From Acidimicrobiia bacterium (GTDB taxonomy: Bacteria; Actinomycetota; Acidimicrobiia; Acidimicrobiales; CATQHL01): a stretch of 64,000 nt of DNA. This document shows, piece by piece, positions 8,496 through 55,137 of this stretch (its first letter is position 1; every line of letters begins with the position of its first letter). Position numbers and translations under genes: made by a program. The notes under the pieces are model-generated. The model saw nothing but the letters and a program-made list of their open reading frames with translations. It was not told the DNA's origin and ran no database searches. The DNA is taken from positions 1 through 64,000 of the forward strand of contig VXXM01000038.1 of the NCBI GenBank assembly GCA_009835395.1, given 5' to 3'.

Positions 8496-9242
8496 ATGGA
8501 TCTGGGGCTCGCGGGTCGGCGGGCGGCCGTGGCGGCTTCCTCAGCCGGTTTGGGTCTTGCGGTGGCTGAGGCCCTGGCCGGTGAGGGTTGCACGGTCGTG
8601 ATCTCCGGGCGAGACCCCGAGCGCCTCAGCCGAGCAGCCGAGGGGATTCCCGGCACCATTCCGGTCGTCGCCGACGTGTCCGACGCAGCCGGCGCCGAGG
8701 CGTTCGTGCGCGACGCCCGCGACGCCCTCGGCGGCATCGACATCCTGGTCATCAACGCCGGCGGCCCGCCCGATGGCGGCTTCGGGTCCTTTGAGCCGGC
8801 GGACTACCTTGAGGCGGTTCATCTGAACCTGATGTCGGTGGTGGCCATGTGCTACGCCGTCACTCCTGAGATGCGGGATCGGCGCTGGGGCCGGATCCTT
8901 GCCATCACCTCGGTGACGGTGCGTCACCCGCTACCCGGCCTGATCCTCTCCAACACGGCGCGCGCCGGTGCCACAGGATTCCTGAAGACGCTGGCGACCG
9001 AACTCGCCGCCGACGGCGTCACCGTCAACTCCATCCAACCCGGCCTGCACGACACCGCCAGGCTGCACTCGGTGTGGGGTGAGGATCTCCCGGCGGTGGT
9101 CGCCCGGAGGGTGCCGGCCGGCCGGCTCGGCGACGCCGGCGATTTCGGGCGCGTCGCCGCCCTGCTGTGCTCGGAATGGGCCGGCTACGTCACCGGCGCG
9201 GCCGTCCCCGTCGACGGCGGCCTCGCCCAGGGACTCCAGTAG
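8496..9242 (+). CDS. SDR-family protein lacking the usual Tyr/Lys pair
   Basis: A 248-residue Rossmann protein of the short-chain dehydrogenase family. The nucleotide loop is [17 protein letters not shown], the NAG motif is [11 protein letters not shown], and the C-terminus [13 protein letters not shown] is typical. The catalytic Ser is present (ITSVTV), but at the +13 and +17 positions where YxxxK should be there is S and R ([10 protein letters not shown]). Some FabG-like clades carry this S/R variant, so it need not be dead, but it cannot be called a standard dehydrogenase. The ORF track begins at 8397; ATG 8496 fits the domain start and the -10 box. It is followed by glyA after 86 bases. 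Confidence 0.8.
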
Positions 9243-47667: not shown

Positions 47668-47931
47668 TCAGGCGGCGCAGTCGGGACGTTCGCTTGGTTG
47701 CCGCTGCTCGTCGTCGGTGGGGAAACCGATTCCCAGGTGGCCCTCGATGCGAGCGACGCTCACTTTCAAGTCACCGACGTCGGCTCTGAGTTCCTTGATC
47801 TCGGCGTCTTGGCGCTTGAAGCCCTCTCGCATCCCGCGGTGCAGGAACCCGAAGGCGGCGAAGATGGCACCGAGGGTGGTGCCGAGGATCGACACCCAGG
47901 CGATGATGAACTCGAGTTGACTGATCTCCAT
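47668..47931 (-). CDS. Small membrane/coiled-coil protein, paralogue B
   Basis: An 87-residue protein: helix LEFIIAWVSILGTTLGAIFAAFGFL, then HRGMREGFKRQDAEIKELRADV and DLKVSVARIEGHLGIG. It is clearly homologous to A and C, with a 4-residue longer helix. ATG 47931 is used (track start 47973 is upstream of the leader's ribosome site). The tail ends in Asp/Glu/Gln-rich residues. Function unknown. Confidence 0.8.
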   Translation of the reverse strand: MEISQLEFIIAWVSILGTTLGAIFAAFGFLHRGMREGFKRQDAEIKELRADVGDLKVSVARIEGHLGIGFPTDDEQRQPSERPDCAA

Positions 47932-47999
47932 TGAACTACTTGCCTCCCTGGCACGACCTGCCGAATGGTTCATTCAGGGGGAAGTTCCACTGGAGCGTA
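47932..47999 (-). promoter_or_regulatory. Conserved leader B: -10 box, 5'-UTR hairpin, RBS
   Basis: Minus strand: TACGCT (47994-47999), CTGAATGAACCATT, hairpin GGCA-GGTCG-TGCC (47950-47962), CAGGGAGGCAAG ribosome site and ATG 47931. The -10 to ATG distance is 62 bases. Confidence 0.6.
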
Positions 48000-48914: not shown

Positions 48915-49937
48915 TCAGAGAGCGAGTCTGACGAGGCTTCCGTCGGCCCGCCCGACCAGGAGGCTGTCCTCGTTGACCCACCGGAGTCGACTGGTCGGGG
49001 CATCGGACTCGATCGCAGTCACCGGCGACAGTTCCTCGCCGGCACGGGTCGGGGTCGCCCACACGATGGTGCGGCCATCTCCTCCTCCCGTGGCGACGGA
49101 CCTGCCGGATGGGTCCCAGGCGACCTCCTCGATGTGGTTGTCGTGACCGGTGGCAACCGCCGGCTCGGTGCCGGCGGGTCCCCTTCCGCCGAAGTCCCAG
49201 ACGGTGAGCTCATCGAGGCATGCAACCGCGAGCCATCGGCTGTCGTGGCGGAACCCGAGTCGCTCGATCTTGGACGGATAGCCGGACATCGAGAGGTCCC
49301 GACCGCTCCAGAGCCGCCACAGATGTACGGACGCGTCTTGGGCGCCGGCGCAGGCCCATGAGCCATTGGGAGACATCACCAGCGCAAGCAGCGACCCTTT
49401 CCAATCGAAGCGACGTCGACGGCCGGTCCGTGGTCCAATGACATCGTGCCAACCAATGCCGCCGTATGCGGTTGCACCGACGCGGGTGCCGTCGGTTGAC
49501 CAGGCGACCGACGTCACCGTTGAGGGTTGATCGTCGAAATCGTGGAGAACCGCACCGTCCTGGTCGGTGATGAGAAGGTGCCGGCCGGCCCCGATCGCAA
49601 GCACGGGTGCGGCCGGCGACCAGGCCTGTGCCGTCACCCAGGCCGATGTGGTAACGACTCCCTTAGCGGCTCCGGTGCGGTCATAGATCCGCACGGACCC
49701 GTCCTGACCTCCCACCGCGACGCGGCCGCCGTCGGATGACCAGGCAGCGCTCAATACTCCCATCTCGTGCCGTTCCAGCGCGATGGTCGAGCCGTCGTCG
49801 ATATCGATGAGGGCAGCGTCGCCACCCAGGGACCCGACCACGGCCTGGCCATGGTCGCGATGGACCTCGAGGACCTGCAGGTAGTCGTCGACGTCCACCC
49901 GCCATTGTGGGACGGGTGCTGTCCCGGGGCCGGTCAT
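48915..49937 (-). CDS. WD40 repeat beta-propeller protein
   Basis: A 340-residue protein of WD40-type repeats: [64 protein letters not shown] and [25 protein letters not shown]. The seven or so repeats fill the whole chain, with no signal peptide. ATG 49937 overlaps the CobW stop (ATGA); the track start at 50033 is inside cobW. Its linkage to the CobW GTPase suggests a scaffold or sensor role in metal handling (inference). Confidence 0.85.
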
Positions 49938-50917
49938 ACCAGGCAGGACCTGAAGCCGGCCTCCAGCGATGCTCGATCGAGATTGCGTCCGATGAACACG
50001 AGACGGTTGCGTCGTTCCTCGCCGTCTCCCCACGCCCCTTGGGGCCGGCCGTCGAGCAGCATGTGGACGCCCTGGAACACATAGCGCTCATCCCAGCCGG
50101 CGATCGACAGGATGCCCTTCGAGCGGAAGATGTCGGTCCCCTTCGTGCGCAGGAGATCGCCCAGCCATTCATTCAGCCGGTCGAGATCTAGGTCGCCATC
50201 GATTTCGATCCCAACCGACGTCACGCTGAGGTCATGCTGATGTTCGGCGTCGGGGTCGAGGAACTCGGGATCATCGGCCAGCACACGCTCGAGCGAGAAC
50301 GCACCGACCTCGAGGATGGTGTCAAGGTCGACCTTTCCGTGCTGGGTCTGGATGATGGGCGCGAGTGGGTTGATCTGCCGGATGCGGGACTCCACATCGT
50401 CTAGCTCGCTGGTGTCGGCGAGGTCGATCTTGTTGAGCACGATCCGATCGGCGAACGCCAGTTGCTCGACAGCCTCGTTCTCGACCCCTTCGGGCTTCTC
50501 TTCGTCCAGATGTGGAACCAGGTGCTTGGCGTCAACCACCGTGACGATGGCGTCGAGCCGCAACTGGGCTGCCATCTCATCGTCGACGAAGAACGTCTGG
50601 GCCACCGGTGCAGGGTCAGCCAGCCCTGTCGTCTCGATGAGGATCTGGTCGAAACGGTCCTTGCGCCGCATCAGATTGCCGAGAATGCGGATCAGATCGC
50701 CTCGAACGGTGCAGCAGATGCACCCATTGTTCATCTCGAAGATCTCTTCCTCGGCATCGAGGACGATGGCATCGTCTATGCCGATCTCGCCGAACTCGTA
50801 TTCGATCACCGCAATCCGCTTGCCGTGCTGCTCGGTGAGGATGTGATTCAACAACGTCGTCTTGCCCGCACCGAGAAAGCCGGTGAGCACCGTCACAGGA
50901 ACCCGCTCATCAACCAT
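49934..50917 (-). CDS. CobW-family G3E GTPase (metal chaperone)
   Basis: A 327-residue G3E GTPase. Walker A is [15 protein letters not shown], the metal site is [12 protein letters not shown], Walker B is [13 protein letters not shown], and NKID is in [10 protein letters not shown]. The C-terminal CobW_C domain has [27 protein letters not shown]0523 proteins of this type deliver zinc, cobalt or other metals. ATG 50917 is used; the track start 51022 lies in the promoter region. Divergent from a FecCD importer with operator copies between, and close to a Fur/Zur gene, which favours a zinc role. Confidence 0.92.
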
Positions 50918-50931
50918 GGCATGAATGGTAC

Positions 50932-50949
50932 TGATTCTTATTCCTATTG
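50932..50949 (-). promoter_or_regulatory. Operator copy 1, near CobW gene
   Basis: TGATTCTTATTCCTATTG, 15 of 18 bases identical to the site at 50994-51011. It lies 15 bases before the CobW start. Probable binding site of a Fur/Zur-type repressor. Confidence 0.5.
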
Positions 50950-50985
50950 CCACCGAGGTACTGGTTGGTAAAGCGTCGCTGAACT

Positions 50986-51010
50986 GATAGGAATCATTCT
51001 CATTCCTATC
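50986..51010 (+). promoter_or_regulatory. Perfect palindromic operator, Zur/Fur-like
   Basis: GATAGGAAT-CATTCTC-ATTCCTATC: 9-bp perfect inverted repeat with 7-nt centre, ending 10 bases before ATG 51021. The AATCATT centre resembles actinobacterial Zur boxes as I remember them. It fits the Fur-family gene at 54351. Confidence 0.6.
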
Positions 51011-51020
51011 GAGGTCGGTC

Positions 51021-52076
51021 ATGTCGCTTCCTGAGGCTCGGGATCAACAGCAGTGGAGTCGCCGCTCCACCCTCATTGGCCTCGCGTTGGTGAGCGTCGT
51101 GTCGATGATCGTCGCCATTGGGCTCGGCCCGGTTTGGGTGACGCCTCCAACGGTCTTGCGGATCATCGGTCATCACACGATCGGGGTGCCCGAGATCGTG
51201 AGTTGGGCGAGAACCGACGACGCAATCATCTGGGAGGTGCGCCTGCCGCGGGTGCTGCTCGGCGCGATCGTGGGCACCGCCCTCGGCGTCGCTGGCGTGA
51301 CCCTCCAGGCTCTGGTTCGCAACCCGCTGGCCGAGCCGTACATCCTCGGCGTGAGTTCGGGGGGTTCCACCGGCGCGGCCGCGGCGATCCTGTTCGGGGT
51401 TGGCTCCGGGTTGGGGCCGGAGTCGGTGTCTCTCATGGCATTCCTGGGTGCCCTCGGCGCCCTTGCTCTTGTGCTGGCGCTGGCCAGGTCCACCGGTCGG
51501 ATCACGCCCTCGCGGATGATCGTGGCGGGGGTTGCCGTCGGCTACCTGCTGAGCGCCACAACCAGCTTGCTGATCCTCTTCGCCGACAGCGCCGAAGGGG
51601 CCCGAGCAGTCATGTTCTGGCTCCTCGGGTCGCTCGCGAACGCGGACTGGTCGACGCTGCCGATCGGCTACCTCGGCATGGGTGCAGGCATGGTCCTCGT
51701 GTACTGGTGGCGCCGCCGGCTCGACCTGCTCGCGCTCGGCGACGAGACCGCGATGGCGAGCGGCGTCGATCCCGGCCGCACCCGAATGGTGCTCGTGGTC
51801 GTGGTGGCACTGTGCGTCGGCTTCGCCGTATCGCTGTCGGGAGGCATCGGATTCGTCGGTCTCGCAGCCCCCCACATCGCACGCCGAATCGTCGGTCCGA
51901 TCCACCGCCACCTGGTCCCGGCGTCCGCCGCTCTCGGCGCCATCATCCTCGTCTGGGCCGATGTCGCGGCCCGCATGGTCCTGCAGCCCCGCGAGCTCCC
52001 GATCGGCGTCGTCACCGGGGTGCTCGGTGCGCCGGTCCTCGTCGCGCTCGTCCGCAAGCTCCCGCACAACAACTGA
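51021..52076 (+). CDS. FecCD/BtuC-family ABC permease
   Basis: A 351-residue membrane protein with about ten helices. [50 protein letters not shown] is the family hallmark, and [27 protein letters not shown] the coupling region. Such permeases import siderophores, haem, B12 or metal chelates. It starts 10 bases after the palindrome and is followed by its binding protein and ATPase. Confidence 0.93.
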
Positions 52077-52167
52077 GAGCGACCGCGCCCGCGAAACGAA
52101 CCACACGAACCACTCCCCAAGCCCCCCAACCACAAATGAGCGCGACCGCGCTCGCGAAAGGAAAACC
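52075..52167. repeat. Imperfect direct repeat and palindrome between permease and SBP
   Basis: GAGCGACCGCGCCCGCGAAACGA recurs as GAGCGCGACCGCGCTCGCGAAAGGA about 60 bases on. The second copy holds GAGCGCG-AC-CGCGCTC (52138-52153), a 7-bp palindrome. It may be an mRNA hairpin that tunes the next gene. Confidence 0.5.
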
Positions 52168-53232
52168 ATGAAACCGTCACTGTTCAGGCTGCATGCAGTC
52201 GTATTGCTTGTTGTCGTTGGTCTTGTGGCCTCGTCGTGCGGAGGCAGCGACGACTCCTCCGCCTCTGCCACCTCCGCTTCCGAGGAAGCAGACGGCGAGG
52301 CGACGGCAGTAAGTGAGCCTGCCGAAGGCGACCAGGCAGCCACCGACGACGGATTCCCCCTGACCTTCACCAATTGCGACGACGAGTTCACCCTCGACTC
52401 GGCTCCTGAGCGGGTGTTGTTGATGGAGGCCGCCGCGCCATCACTGCTGTTCGCTGCCGGTGCCATGGACCGTGTGGTCGCTCGCATCGAGGACTTCCCC
52501 GAGGAGTACTACACCGCCGACGAGATGGCCGTCCTCCGCGCCATCCCGGCATTGCTGGCCGAGGCCACCGCGACCGGCGGTGTCGAAGTCTCGATCGAGG
52601 AGATCATCGCCCACGAACCCGACATCGTCATCGGCTACGACACCGCAACGCTCACCCACGACACGCTCGGCGACGTCGGAATCCAGCTCTATGTGATGCC
52701 CCCGTTCTGCGACAACCCACCGACACCGTCGTTCGAGAGCATCCTGGAAGAGGTCCGCCTTTACGGGGAGATCTTCGGCACGACGGAGATCGCCAGTGCC
52801 AGCGCCGCCGCGATGGAGGCCGCGGTGGCCACCGCAGCCGATGCGCCCGTCGCCGCGGGCAAGACCGCTGCTGCTCTCTATGTCAGCTCCGACGGCAGCG
52901 CCATCTACGCCTATTCCTCGCTCGGCATGGTGCATCCGCTGATGGAGGCCCTCGGCATGACCAACGTCTTCGCCGAACTCAGCGAGCGGGTGCCCGAGGT
53001 CTCGATCGAAGAGGTCATCGGTCGCAACCCCCAGATCCTGGTCCTGCTCTATGACGACACTGGTCTCACTCCCGAGGAGATAAGCGCGATGGTCACCGGA
53101 CGCCAGGGCGCCGGCAGCATCACCGCGGTAGCCGAAGGCGCTGTCTACCCGCTCCTGTTCAACTACGCCGAGCCGCCAACACCACTCGTGGTGGAGGGAC
53201 TGTCAGTGCTCAGCACCCAGATCGCCCGGTGA
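52168..53232 (+). CDS. Periplasmic-binding-type lipoprotein, FecB/BtuF class
   Basis: A 354-residue lipoprotein with lipobox VASSC and an Asp/Ser/Glu-rich linker, then a TroA/FecB-fold domain: LDSAPERVLLMEAAAPSLLFAAGAMDRVVAR, EVSIEEIIAHEPDIVIGYD and EVSIEEVIGRNPQILVLLYDD. It feeds the FecCD permease. ATG 52168 has GAAAGGA upstream; the track start at 51682 is inside the permease. Ligand probably a metal or metal complex (inference). Confidence 0.9.
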   Translation: MKPSLFRLHAVVLLVVVGLVASSCGGSDDSSASATSASEEADGEATAVSEPAEGDQAATDDGFPLTFTNCDDEFTLDSAPERVLLMEAAAPSLLFAAGAMDRVVARIEDFPEEYYTADEMAVLRAIPALLAEATATGGVEVSIEEIIAHEPDIVIGYDTATLTHDTLGDVGIQLYVMPPFCDNPPTPSFESILEEVRLYGEIFGTTEIASASAAAMEAAVATAADAPVAAGKTAAALYVSSDGSAIYAYSSLGMVHPLMEALGMTNVFAELSERVPEVSIEEVIGRNPQILVLLYDDTGLTPEEISAMVTGRQGAGSITAVAEGAVYPLLFNYAEPPTPLVVEGLSVLSTQIAR

Positions 53233-53239
53233 CGATCCG

Positions 53240-54004
53240 ATGATCGCGGCCACTGGCATCGACCTGCGGCTCGGCGCGAGCGATGTCCTGTCCGGGGCGC
53301 GGCTCTGCACACGCCCCGGACAGGTCGTCGGTCTCATCGGGCCCAATGGCAGCGGCAAGTCATCGTTGCTGCGCTGCCTGTATGGGATGCTCCGCCCGAA
53401 CCGAGGCGCCGTTCTCATCGACGACAAGGCGATCGAGTCGATGTCGCAACGCTCGATTGCACGTGCGATCGCGGTCGTGGCCCAGGACGCCTCTGCCGAC
53501 GGGATCGACATCACGGTCGGCGAGTTCGTGCTGCTGGGTCGCCACGTTCATCGTGGCGACCATGAGGGTTTCACCGACGACGACTGCAAGGTCGCTCTCG
53601 ACGGACTGGAAATGGTGGACCTGTCGGGCTTCGCCGAGCGGCACCTCCACGAGATGTCAGGCGGAGAACGCCAGCGGGTGATGATCGCCCGGTGCATCGC
53701 TCAACAGAGCCCGGTCATCCTGCTCGACGAGCCCACCAATCATCTCGATGTCCGCTACCAGCATGAGGTGCTCACGCTGGTTCGGCAGCTCAAGAACGAC
53801 ACCATCGTGGTGCTCCACGACCTCAACCTCGCCGGCCGCTACTGCGACCATCTCGCCCTCCTCGACCGAGGCAGCGTCGTGTATCAGGGTCAGCCCGACG
53901 ATGTTCTGCGAAGCGATGTGCTGGAACCCGTCTACGGCATCGAGGTGCGACGACTTGCCGATGGGCAGCACCCCTACCTCGCGTTCGGCCCTCTCGCGCG
54001 GTGA
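53240..54004 (+). CDS. FecE/BtuD-type ABC ATPase
   Basis: A 254-residue ATPase. Walker A is GPNGSGKS, the signature MSGGERQRVMIARC, Walker B VILLDEPTNHLD and the H-loop VVLHDLNLAGR. Genes for permease, binding protein and ATPase run in order with no gaps over 100 bases, so it energises the FecCD importer. Start ATG 53240. Confidence 0.93.
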   Translation: MIAATGIDLRLGASDVLSGARLCTRPGQVVGLIGPNGSGKSSLLRCLYGMLRPNRGAVLIDDKAIESMSQRSIARAIAVVAQDASADGIDITVGEFVLLGRHVHRGDHEGFTDDDCKVALDGLEMVDLSGFAERHLHEMSGGERQRVMIARCIAQQSPVILLDEPTNHLDVRYQHEVLTLVRQLKNDTIVVLHDLNLAGRYCDHLALLDRGSVVYQGQPDDVLRSDVLEPVYGIEVRRLADGQHPYLAFGPLAR

Positions 54005-54017
54005 TCGGCGGCGAGCT

Positions 54018-54386
54018 ATGACCGAGGCGCAATGCGCCCTTGACTCCGGGACCGGCATACGGGTCCTGATCTGTCGCGGCTGTTGCTGCGGCACCGAGCG
54101 AAAGCACCCCGAGGTCGACCACGACGGGCAGATCGTCGCGATCTCGGCGCGGGCGCGGGCTCGTGTCGTCGATTGCGTCGGCGAGTGCGCCCACTCCAAT
54201 GTCGTGATCGTCCGCTCGGGCGACGGGTCATCGGTGTGGCTCGGAGGCATCAACAACCCCGCGATCACCGCTGCCCTGTGCGAGTGGCTCGGCGCCGGCG
54301 CTCCGCAACCGCCGCCCCAGGTTCTTCAGTCGAGGGTCTTCGTTCGGCGATCAGAGACAGTCGGGGCAGGTGCCGAACACGTCTAA
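54018..54386 (+). CDS. Thioredoxin-like 2Fe-2S ferredoxin protein
   Basis: A 122-residue protein with VLICRGCCCGTERKHPEVDHDGQ and ARVVDCVGECAHSNVVIVR. The paired Cys groups match a thioredoxin-fold [2Fe-2S] ferredoxin of the kind linked with metal-uptake genes. No signal peptide. ATG 54018 is used; the track ORF at 53748 is a shadow. It may reduce or release the imported metal (inference). Its 3' end overlaps the convergent fur gene by 36 bases. Confidence 0.7.
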   Translation: MTEAQCALDSGTGIRVLICRGCCCGTERKHPEVDHDGQIVAISARARARVVDCVGECAHSNVVIVRSGDGSSVWLGGINNPAITAALCEWLGAGAPQPPPQVLQSRVFVRRSETVGAGAEHV

Positions 54387-54794
54387 CCGGTGGGCGCTCG
54401 GTTGGAACCCGCTCGTGGCGAGCGCCTTGTCCAGCGATGTCTCGAGAGTGCGTTCGGCCGCAGCAGTCATGAAGAAATCATCGACCACCCCACACACGGC
54501 GCAGATGGTGTGGTGGTGATGGCCGATGATGTCCACCGAGAACTCGTAGCGAGTCGGGTCACTCGCCCCGACGACTCGCCGCACGACGCCCACGCTCTCG
54601 AGGTCGGCCATGTTGCGGTAGAGCGAGCTTTGCGTCAGGCCGGGACGCATCTCGAGCACCTCAGGGATGCTCGCTGGGCGAGCGGCGCGAACAAGGAGTT
54701 CCACGAGTTCCCGCCGGCCCTTGGTGTAGATCTGGCCGGCTTCACGCAGGCGGGCCGATACCAAGTCATGCGTTTCGACGGGTCGCAGGCCCAT
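54351..54794 (-). CDS. Fur-family metalloregulator, probably Zur
   Basis: A 147-residue repressor. The winged-helix part is IYTKGRRELVELLVRAARPASIPEV to LTQSSLYRNMADLESVGVVRRV; the dimer/metal part has IIGHHHHTICAVCGVVDDF and ends VFGTCPDCL, with CxxC pairs for structural zinc. Given CobW and a palindromic site nearby, zinc sensing is more likely than iron, but sequence alone cannot decide. A TAGGAT box 6 bases before the ATG suggests leaderless expression. Confidence 0.88.
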   Translation of the reverse strand: MGLRPVETHDLVSARLREAGQIYTKGRRELVELLVRAARPASIPEVLEMRPGLTQSSLYRNMADLESVGVVRRVVGASDPTRYEFSVDIIGHHHHTICAVCGVVDDFFMTAAAERTLETSLDKALATSGFQPSAHRLDVFGTCPDCL

Positions 54795-54876: not shown

Positions 54877-55137
54877 TTAGGCAGCGCGCCCGGGGGGTTC
54901 GTCACCCGCCCGCTGATCTCCGGTCGCCGGGAAGCCGATCCCCAGATGTCCCTCGATACGGGCCACGGCGATCCGCAGATCCGTGATCTGCTCGAGCTTC
55001 TCATCTTGGCGATCCATCCGGGCTTCGTGGCGGTCGAAGCCCCGGCGCATCTCGCGGAGCAGGAACCCGAAAGCAGCGAGAACTACGCCGAGGATCGATA
55101 CCCAGGCGATGATGAACTCGAGTTGACCGACTTCCAC
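54877..55137 (-). CDS. Small membrane/coiled-coil protein, paralogue C
   Basis: An 86-residue protein with helix LEFIIAWVSILGVVLAAFGFLL, then charged REMRRGFDRHEARMDRQDEKLEQI and DLRIAVARIEGHLGIG. It starts with GTG 55137, unlike A and B (ATG), but the same leader precedes it, which supports the start. Homologous to A and B; function unknown. Confidence 0.8.
   Translation of the reverse strand: MEVGQLEFIIAWVSILGVVLAAFGFLLREMRRGFDRHEARMDRQDEKLEQITDLRIAVARIEGHLGIGFPATGDQRAGDEPPGRAA

Follow-up and report, generated by a model that had tools for sequence, protein, structure and literature searches.

A FecCD-type ABC importer preceded by an operator-like inverted repeat, and accompanied by a cobW gene and a Fur-family gene, raises the question of which metal these genes respond to and which protein reads their operators. 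The window analysed here, a stretch of 64,000 nt, is part of contig 19 of 95 in the 3.16-Mb draft genome (G000) of a marine Acidimicrobiia bacterium, the close relatives of which are Acidimicrobiia MAGs, including Candidatus Poriferisocius. A previous sequence-only reading had proposed a zinc-type regulon at this position. All the genes that it named were present, and their family assignments were firm on the basis of ORF translations, Pfam and NCBIfam. The features are as follows.

48915-49943, minus strand: WD40 beta-propeller protein (PF00400), overlapping cobW by 10 nt
49934-50917, minus strand: CobW/COG0523 GTPase (PF02492, 211 bits; PF07683, 93 bits; GCICC motif)
50918-50948: operator B, abutting the start of cobW, in two overlapping registers (50918-50942, minus strand; 50924-50948, plus strand)
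50986-51010: operator A, GATAGGAATCATTCTCATTCCTATC; 10 nt separate its end from the annotated start of the permease
51021-52076, plus strand: FecCD-type ABC permease (PF01032, 308.8 bits)
52168-53232, plus strand: substrate-binding lipoprotein (PF01497)
53240-54004, plus strand: ABC ATPase (PF00005, 113.6 bits)
54018-54386, plus strand: small cysteine-rich, ferredoxin-like protein (no Pfam match; fold match)
54351-54794, minus strand: Fur-family regulator, Zur-like (PF01475, 48.3 bits)

Two details of the earlier layout had to be corrected: a span starting at 50932 misplaces cobW and the WD40 gene, both of which lie to the left of this position, and the Fur gene, described as three genes on, comes fifth when the permease is taken as the first. 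It is convergent to the ferredoxin-like gene and overlaps the end of the latter. The neighbouring xanthine dehydrogenase genes were not counted as cluster members, since they did not accompany the cluster in relatives. On both flanks of the cluster (47668-47973 and 54877-55137, both minus strand) lie copies from a single family of small proteins with a predicted membrane anchor; the two are 55% identical to each other, and another copy adjoins the cluster in L036 (L036:1290-1583); these copies perhaps represent a dispersed repeat gene or an island border.

The operator upstream of the FecCD importer follows the pattern GATAGGAAT-N7-ATTCCTATC. Its description as a perfect 25-bp palindrome holds for the two 9-bp arms, which are perfect, but not for the 7-bp centre, which is non-palindromic. 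Operator A can be read as a hexamer array, AGGAAT-x-ATTCCT-ATTCCT, which we take to be similar to a Fur box. The orthologous loci L040, L047 and L048 reveal the nature of the centre: with GGAATcATTCCTATTCC or GGAATcGTTCCTATTCC, they show an array of one forward hexamer, one base and two reverse hexamers. Since the middle hexamer can take either orientation, the outer arms mimic a palindrome with a random centre. Palindromicity alone is unremarkable: this GC-rich window contains 11 cases of perfect 9-bp arms separated by 3-9 nt. The sequence of the site, by contrast, exceeds what chance would produce. Among relatives the hexamers vary (AGGAAT, GGGAAT, CGGAAT and GAGAAT, with GATAAT in L038, where the importer has no called Fur gene next to it), and the arrangement is common to all. 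The variant site upstream of cobW makes a poor palindrome; its cognates, however, were found directly before cobW in L041, L062, L121 and L126. Conservation thus supports the twin sites as predicted operators.

The proposed genome scan was carried out with up to three mismatches, and gave one match in the window (none in 100 shuffles) and one in the 3.16-Mb genome. Enrichment of the simple pattern TAGGAAT-N7-ATTCCTA (three mismatches) was close to that of the reversed control in most genomes, and the count was therefore replaced by a profile search. The profile R1 covers 29 positions and was built from 20 sites, including A and excluding B; the training sites stem from related genomes and are not independent. 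With a held-out matrix of 18 sites, all from other genera, A scored 35.8 and B 34.7 (28.0 in the other register), compared with 7.5 for the best position elsewhere in the 64 kb. In the whole genomes of relatives carrying the cluster, the best R1 match was located before the importer in all eight (21.2-25.7 bits), and the orthologous loci likewise carry the motif upstream of the importer. The maximum among 16 cluster-free genomes was 17.6 bits, and nine of them were without any match; for lone matches of about 14-17 bits, it is therefore the position alone that lends credibility. In the host genome, R1 detected three distinct sites: A (22.5 bits, the best), B (15.3 bits) and C, a further site on another contig:

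contig 91, 19305-19329: site C (14.3 bits), about 37 nt upstream of the gene for the binding protein of another FecCD importer

The score of site C falls inside the noise range of the control genomes. A second FecCD importer is located immediately beside the first in L040 and L044.

To which metal this motif is linked can be judged from the genes that follow it in relatives. No site upstream of any azt or zigA gene was included in the R1 training set. An R1 site precedes AztC-AztB in G201, while in G085 one site precedes AztD and another a ZigA-type GTPase (575 of 600 bits with the ZigA model). In G159 and G184, R1 sites precede cobW-WD40 on other contigs, separate from the importer. At L053 (Ilumatobacteraceae), an AztC-like gene and a COG0523 gene lie near the importer, with TGAGAGTGATTCTCA between them, and genes for an ArsR regulator and a cation-efflux protein adjoin the cluster at L047. 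These genomic positions, before AztC/AztB, AztD, a ZigA-type chaperone and cobW-WD40, give good support to the predicted zinc-type regulon. They also bear on a reading as an iron regulon, in which a ferric siderophore importer would be controlled by an iron-sensing Fur-family protein. Importers of the FecCD and PF01497 families are mostly iron-siderophore systems, and NCBIfam Fur models match the window regulator weakly; the identical motif stands, however, upstream of Azt and ZigA zinc genes in relatives, and Actinobacteria usually control iron with DtxR/IdeR, making this reading highly improbable. A manganese, nickel or cobalt regulon is also highly improbable. Since the AztC and AztB matches lie under the equivalog cut-offs, and MntC-type models match as well, gene names alone do not separate manganese from zinc, but the Azt models scored highest in each case, the ZigA-type match comes close to its cut-off, no manganese counterpart of AztD was among the matches, and the genes adjoining L047 also speak for zinc.

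Two further groups of genes were noted around these sites in relatives. Genes for iron-type or NDMA-dependent alcohol dehydrogenases lie behind motif sites (L046:2809-4994 and L053:10499-11790), and perhaps substitute for zinc alcohol dehydrogenases. Genes for iota carbonic anhydrase, a metal-free enzyme of firm identity (PDB 7c5x, E 2.2e-71), lie beside WD40 or mogA genes (L047:1184-1657 and 8668-9153, L062:2373-2906, and L149). The motif was found upstream of only one of 11 genomic copies, that of L154, which lies next to the importer with the site 149 nt away, and iota carbonic anhydrase was accordingly dropped as a general, zinc-sparing member of the regulon.

Next to the metal stands the question of the regulator. 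The window protein has the Fur-family fold (PF01475, 48.3 bits against a cut-off of 23.1), and its structural zinc site, two CxxC pairs (C98, C101, C143 and C146), is invariant, as are H93-H95. The regulatory site of characterised Zur proteins has Asp, Cys, His and His as ligands. In the window type the His residues are invariant and the Asp and Cys positions differ, a comparison that serves as a lead only. PRK11639, the curated Zur model, was not among the matches of the window protein at E 0.01; a second Zur-like protein of the same genome, encoded on contig 65, reached just 29 of 167 bits with this model, which thus seems not to cover the Zur of the host phylum. Operators of Fur-box architecture precede zinc-uptake genes in relatives, and the importer and cobW in the window. 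We infer the name Zur for the window protein on functional grounds, as some of its regulatory-site residues differ from those of characterised Zur proteins; conservation supports the protein as a putative Zur-like regulator, as previously proposed.

The genome encodes three Fur-family proteins, namely, a PerR-like protein (contig 32), the Zur-like protein beside aztA (contig 65) and the window protein. The aztC gene starts at the end of contig 65, and contig 29 carries a fragment of a ZnuA-type gene along with an AztB-like gene. The presence of two Zur-like proteins allows for the same zinc regulon with A and B bound mainly by the contig-65 protein, leaving the local Fur protein another job or a minor share. 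The contig-65 protein, 34% identical to the window protein, sits with AztA, and the aztC site of its system (TGAATCTCATTCTGA) scored above background with the held-out matrix. In the tree, the window-type Fur proteins formed a tight clade apart from the Azt-linked type. The window type is the sole Fur-family gene of G085 and the sole Zur-like gene of G281, yet the sites are present in both, with TGAGAnT-type boxes at the start codons of their aztC genes, indicating that a cell can rely on the window type as its zinc regulator. Conversely, in G056 and G130 (same-genus and same-family genomes that carry only the contig-65 type or its relative), no strong motif matches were detected before zinc genes. 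Main binding by the contig-65 protein is therefore unlikely. Motif sites followed by an S33 hydrolase gene and then a window-type Fur gene were observed in G184 (L121:9179-10543) and G159 (L120), which suggests autoregulation of Fur in that genus.

Taken together, we consider it probable that the importer and cobW-WD40 form a zinc-starvation regulon of the Zur type, with the local Fur protein as its most likely binder. Computation shows the gene set, the conservation of the operators, their layout as Fur boxes and the placement of the motif ahead of zinc genes in relatives; from these results we infer zinc as co-repressor, repression as the mode of control, the identity of the binder and a zinc chelate as substrate. 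When zinc is replete, a Zur-like protein, most likely the product of 54351-54794, would occupy A and B and repress two divergent transcripts. The distance to the respective start codon is about 10 nt for A and 0 nt for B, which places both in promoter territory; a Fur-family dimer bound there would block the two promoters. When zinc is short, the repressor would leave the DNA and both transcripts would be released. The first, encoding the FecCD-type importer and the ferredoxin-like protein, would serve the uptake of zinc, probably in complexed form, besides AztABC; the second, encoding the COG0523 GTPase and its WD40 partner, would allocate scarce zinc within the cell.

The importer itself is not of the family usual for zinc. 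The permease matched FecCD (PF01032) with 308.8 bits and ABC-3 with 24.6 bits, and the binding protein belongs to PF01497, not to PF01297 (ZnuA), so that the importer is not a ZnuABC or AztABC system. The nearest solved structure to the binding protein was 5cr9 (E 3.8e-58); a structure model of the binding protein was of low confidence (pLDDT 61.8) and was left out of the argument. None of the three subunits exceeded any curated equivalog cut-off (BtuCDF, F420-0 or named siderophore importers). The top NCBIfam matches were those of a putative F420-0 ABC transporter (TIGR03868, TIGR03869 and TIGR03873), all far under their curated cut-offs (90/392, 278/437 and 236/372 bits). BtuC and corrinoid-ATPase models were also among the top matches, in line with a corrinoid importer related to BtuCDF, for which CobW would be a marker of cobalamin metabolism. 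A Paraburkholderia homologue (L071, 46% identical) is preceded by a cobalamin riboswitch and a probable receptor gene. In the window, however, a riboswitch search found none, BtuC (232 of 334 bits) and CobW (216 of 332 bits) both stayed under the cut-off, and the operator ties the importer to zinc genes, leaving the corrinoid importer as a minor, highly improbable reading. The riboswitch of the Paraburkholderia locus is at L071:1416-1571, before the likely receptor gene and the homologous importer, and in the sister locus L058 a COG0523 gene lies nearby.

Returning to zinc, the host genome already encodes AztABC, an ABC-3 system located with the other Zur-like gene. The FecCD importer is thus an addition to it, which suggests uptake of a complexed form of zinc. 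A zinc chelate is thus a plausible substrate, and this idea fits both the separate Azt importer and the surroundings of the nearest outside homologue, that of Kibdelosporangium (L054, 56%). That locus (L054:173-12726, Kibdelosporangium persicum) contains genes for Fur, a PLP-dependent synthase, an ATP-grasp ligase, a DUF364 'heavy-metal chelation' protein, MFS transporters, TauD and a FecCD importer, and looks like a metallophore cluster. An own NRPS metallophore was rejected, as a search of the host genome (a draft, 94% complete) gave no NRPS condensation domain; the chelator, if any, may come from neighbours. In L045, L046 and L053, a SAM-dependent methyltransferase gene is the first gene of the importer operon, behind the operator.

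The proteins outside the transport system were assigned as follows. CobW matched YjiA (1nij, E 1.3e-62) and carries the CxCC motif, as GCICC in its translation, together with PF02492 and PF07683; with the ZigA equivalog it reached 212 of 600 bits and hence is not assigned to ZigA. Given the 10-nt overlap, WD40 is probably translated together with cobW, which it adjoins also in L035, L041, L042, L046, L047 and L062. The WD40 neighbour and the Zur-type site are features of COG0523 subfamily 5, a putative assignment judged by neighbourhood. The ferredoxin-like protein has conserved cysteines (C19, C22-C24, C53 and C57), and its model (pLDDT 72.8) matched the thioredoxin-like ferredoxin 9jn8 (E 3.9e-3). 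This fold match makes the name fair and moderately supported, although no Pfam match was obtained.

Haas et al. (2009, PMC2770081) described COG0523 subfamily 5 in association with WD40, znuABC and Zur sites, and the window is a variant of this published combination of CobW, WD40 and Zur. As in those regulons, a COG0523 GTPase lies beside WD40 and behind a Zur-type site; unlike them, the window has a divergent FecCD importer in place of znuABC, the hexamer AGGAAT and the regulator gene within the cluster. Zinc uptake by AztABCD with Zur is known in Paracoccus (PMC6689063), and shares with the present case the AztABC genes of the host genome and the motif before azt genes in relatives, whereas the importer of the window belongs to FecCD/PF01497 instead of ABC-3/ZnuA and is not located with the azt genes. 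Opine zincophore clusters of actinomycetes (PMC7438024) are known to include FecCD importers, likewise with a FecCD permease, a PF01497 binding protein and an ABC ATPase, there for a zinc complex; unlike those clusters, the window has no biosynthesis genes beside the importer, and the genome lacks an NRPS condensation domain. In Corynebacterium diphtheriae (PMC6711530), several ABC importers of different types and an alcohol dehydrogenase are under the control of Zur; the importer families there are other ones, and the passages considered report no COG0523-WD40 pair. A search of a paper library combining Acidimicrobi- with 'zinc uptake regulator' returned nothing. The locus thus adds a testable zinc regulon, operator included, to Acidimicrobiia. 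A siderophore-family importer under predicted zinc-type control coexists with an ABC-3 importer, making a zinc-complex substrate directly testable. The system also offers two Zur-like paralogues that apparently differ in half-site, as well as a MogA paralogue linked to Zur.

This last gene was found in about five independent relatives, divergent from the importer operon or within it, mostly with its own operator:

L039:313-912, and in L040, L043-L050 and L053: mogA beside the importer, encoding a MogA-type molybdopterin adenylyltransferase

It is a second copy in G159, G184 and G201, 38-39% identical to the MoaB-type housekeeping gene, which was present in all 10 genomes checked; the genome of the window has the housekeeping copy only (G000:C40:10082-10522). 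A literature search returned no paper with mogA, Zur and zinc as its subject. We tentatively raise the possibility, itself doubtful, that two Zur paralogues have diverged in their half-sites, AGGAAT for the window type and GAGAAT for the AztABC-linked type, and that a separate module for zinc complexes, comprising FecCD importers and, in relatives, the second MogA, is under the control of the window type. If true, this would link zinc starvation to molybdenum-cofactor synthesis. Finally, two sites with altered hexamers, CGGAAT and CGGAAC, each with a 7-1-7 inverted repeat, were observed at L045:3836-3882, between mogA-WD40 and the methyltransferase-importer operon, where co-evolution of operator and regulator is possible.
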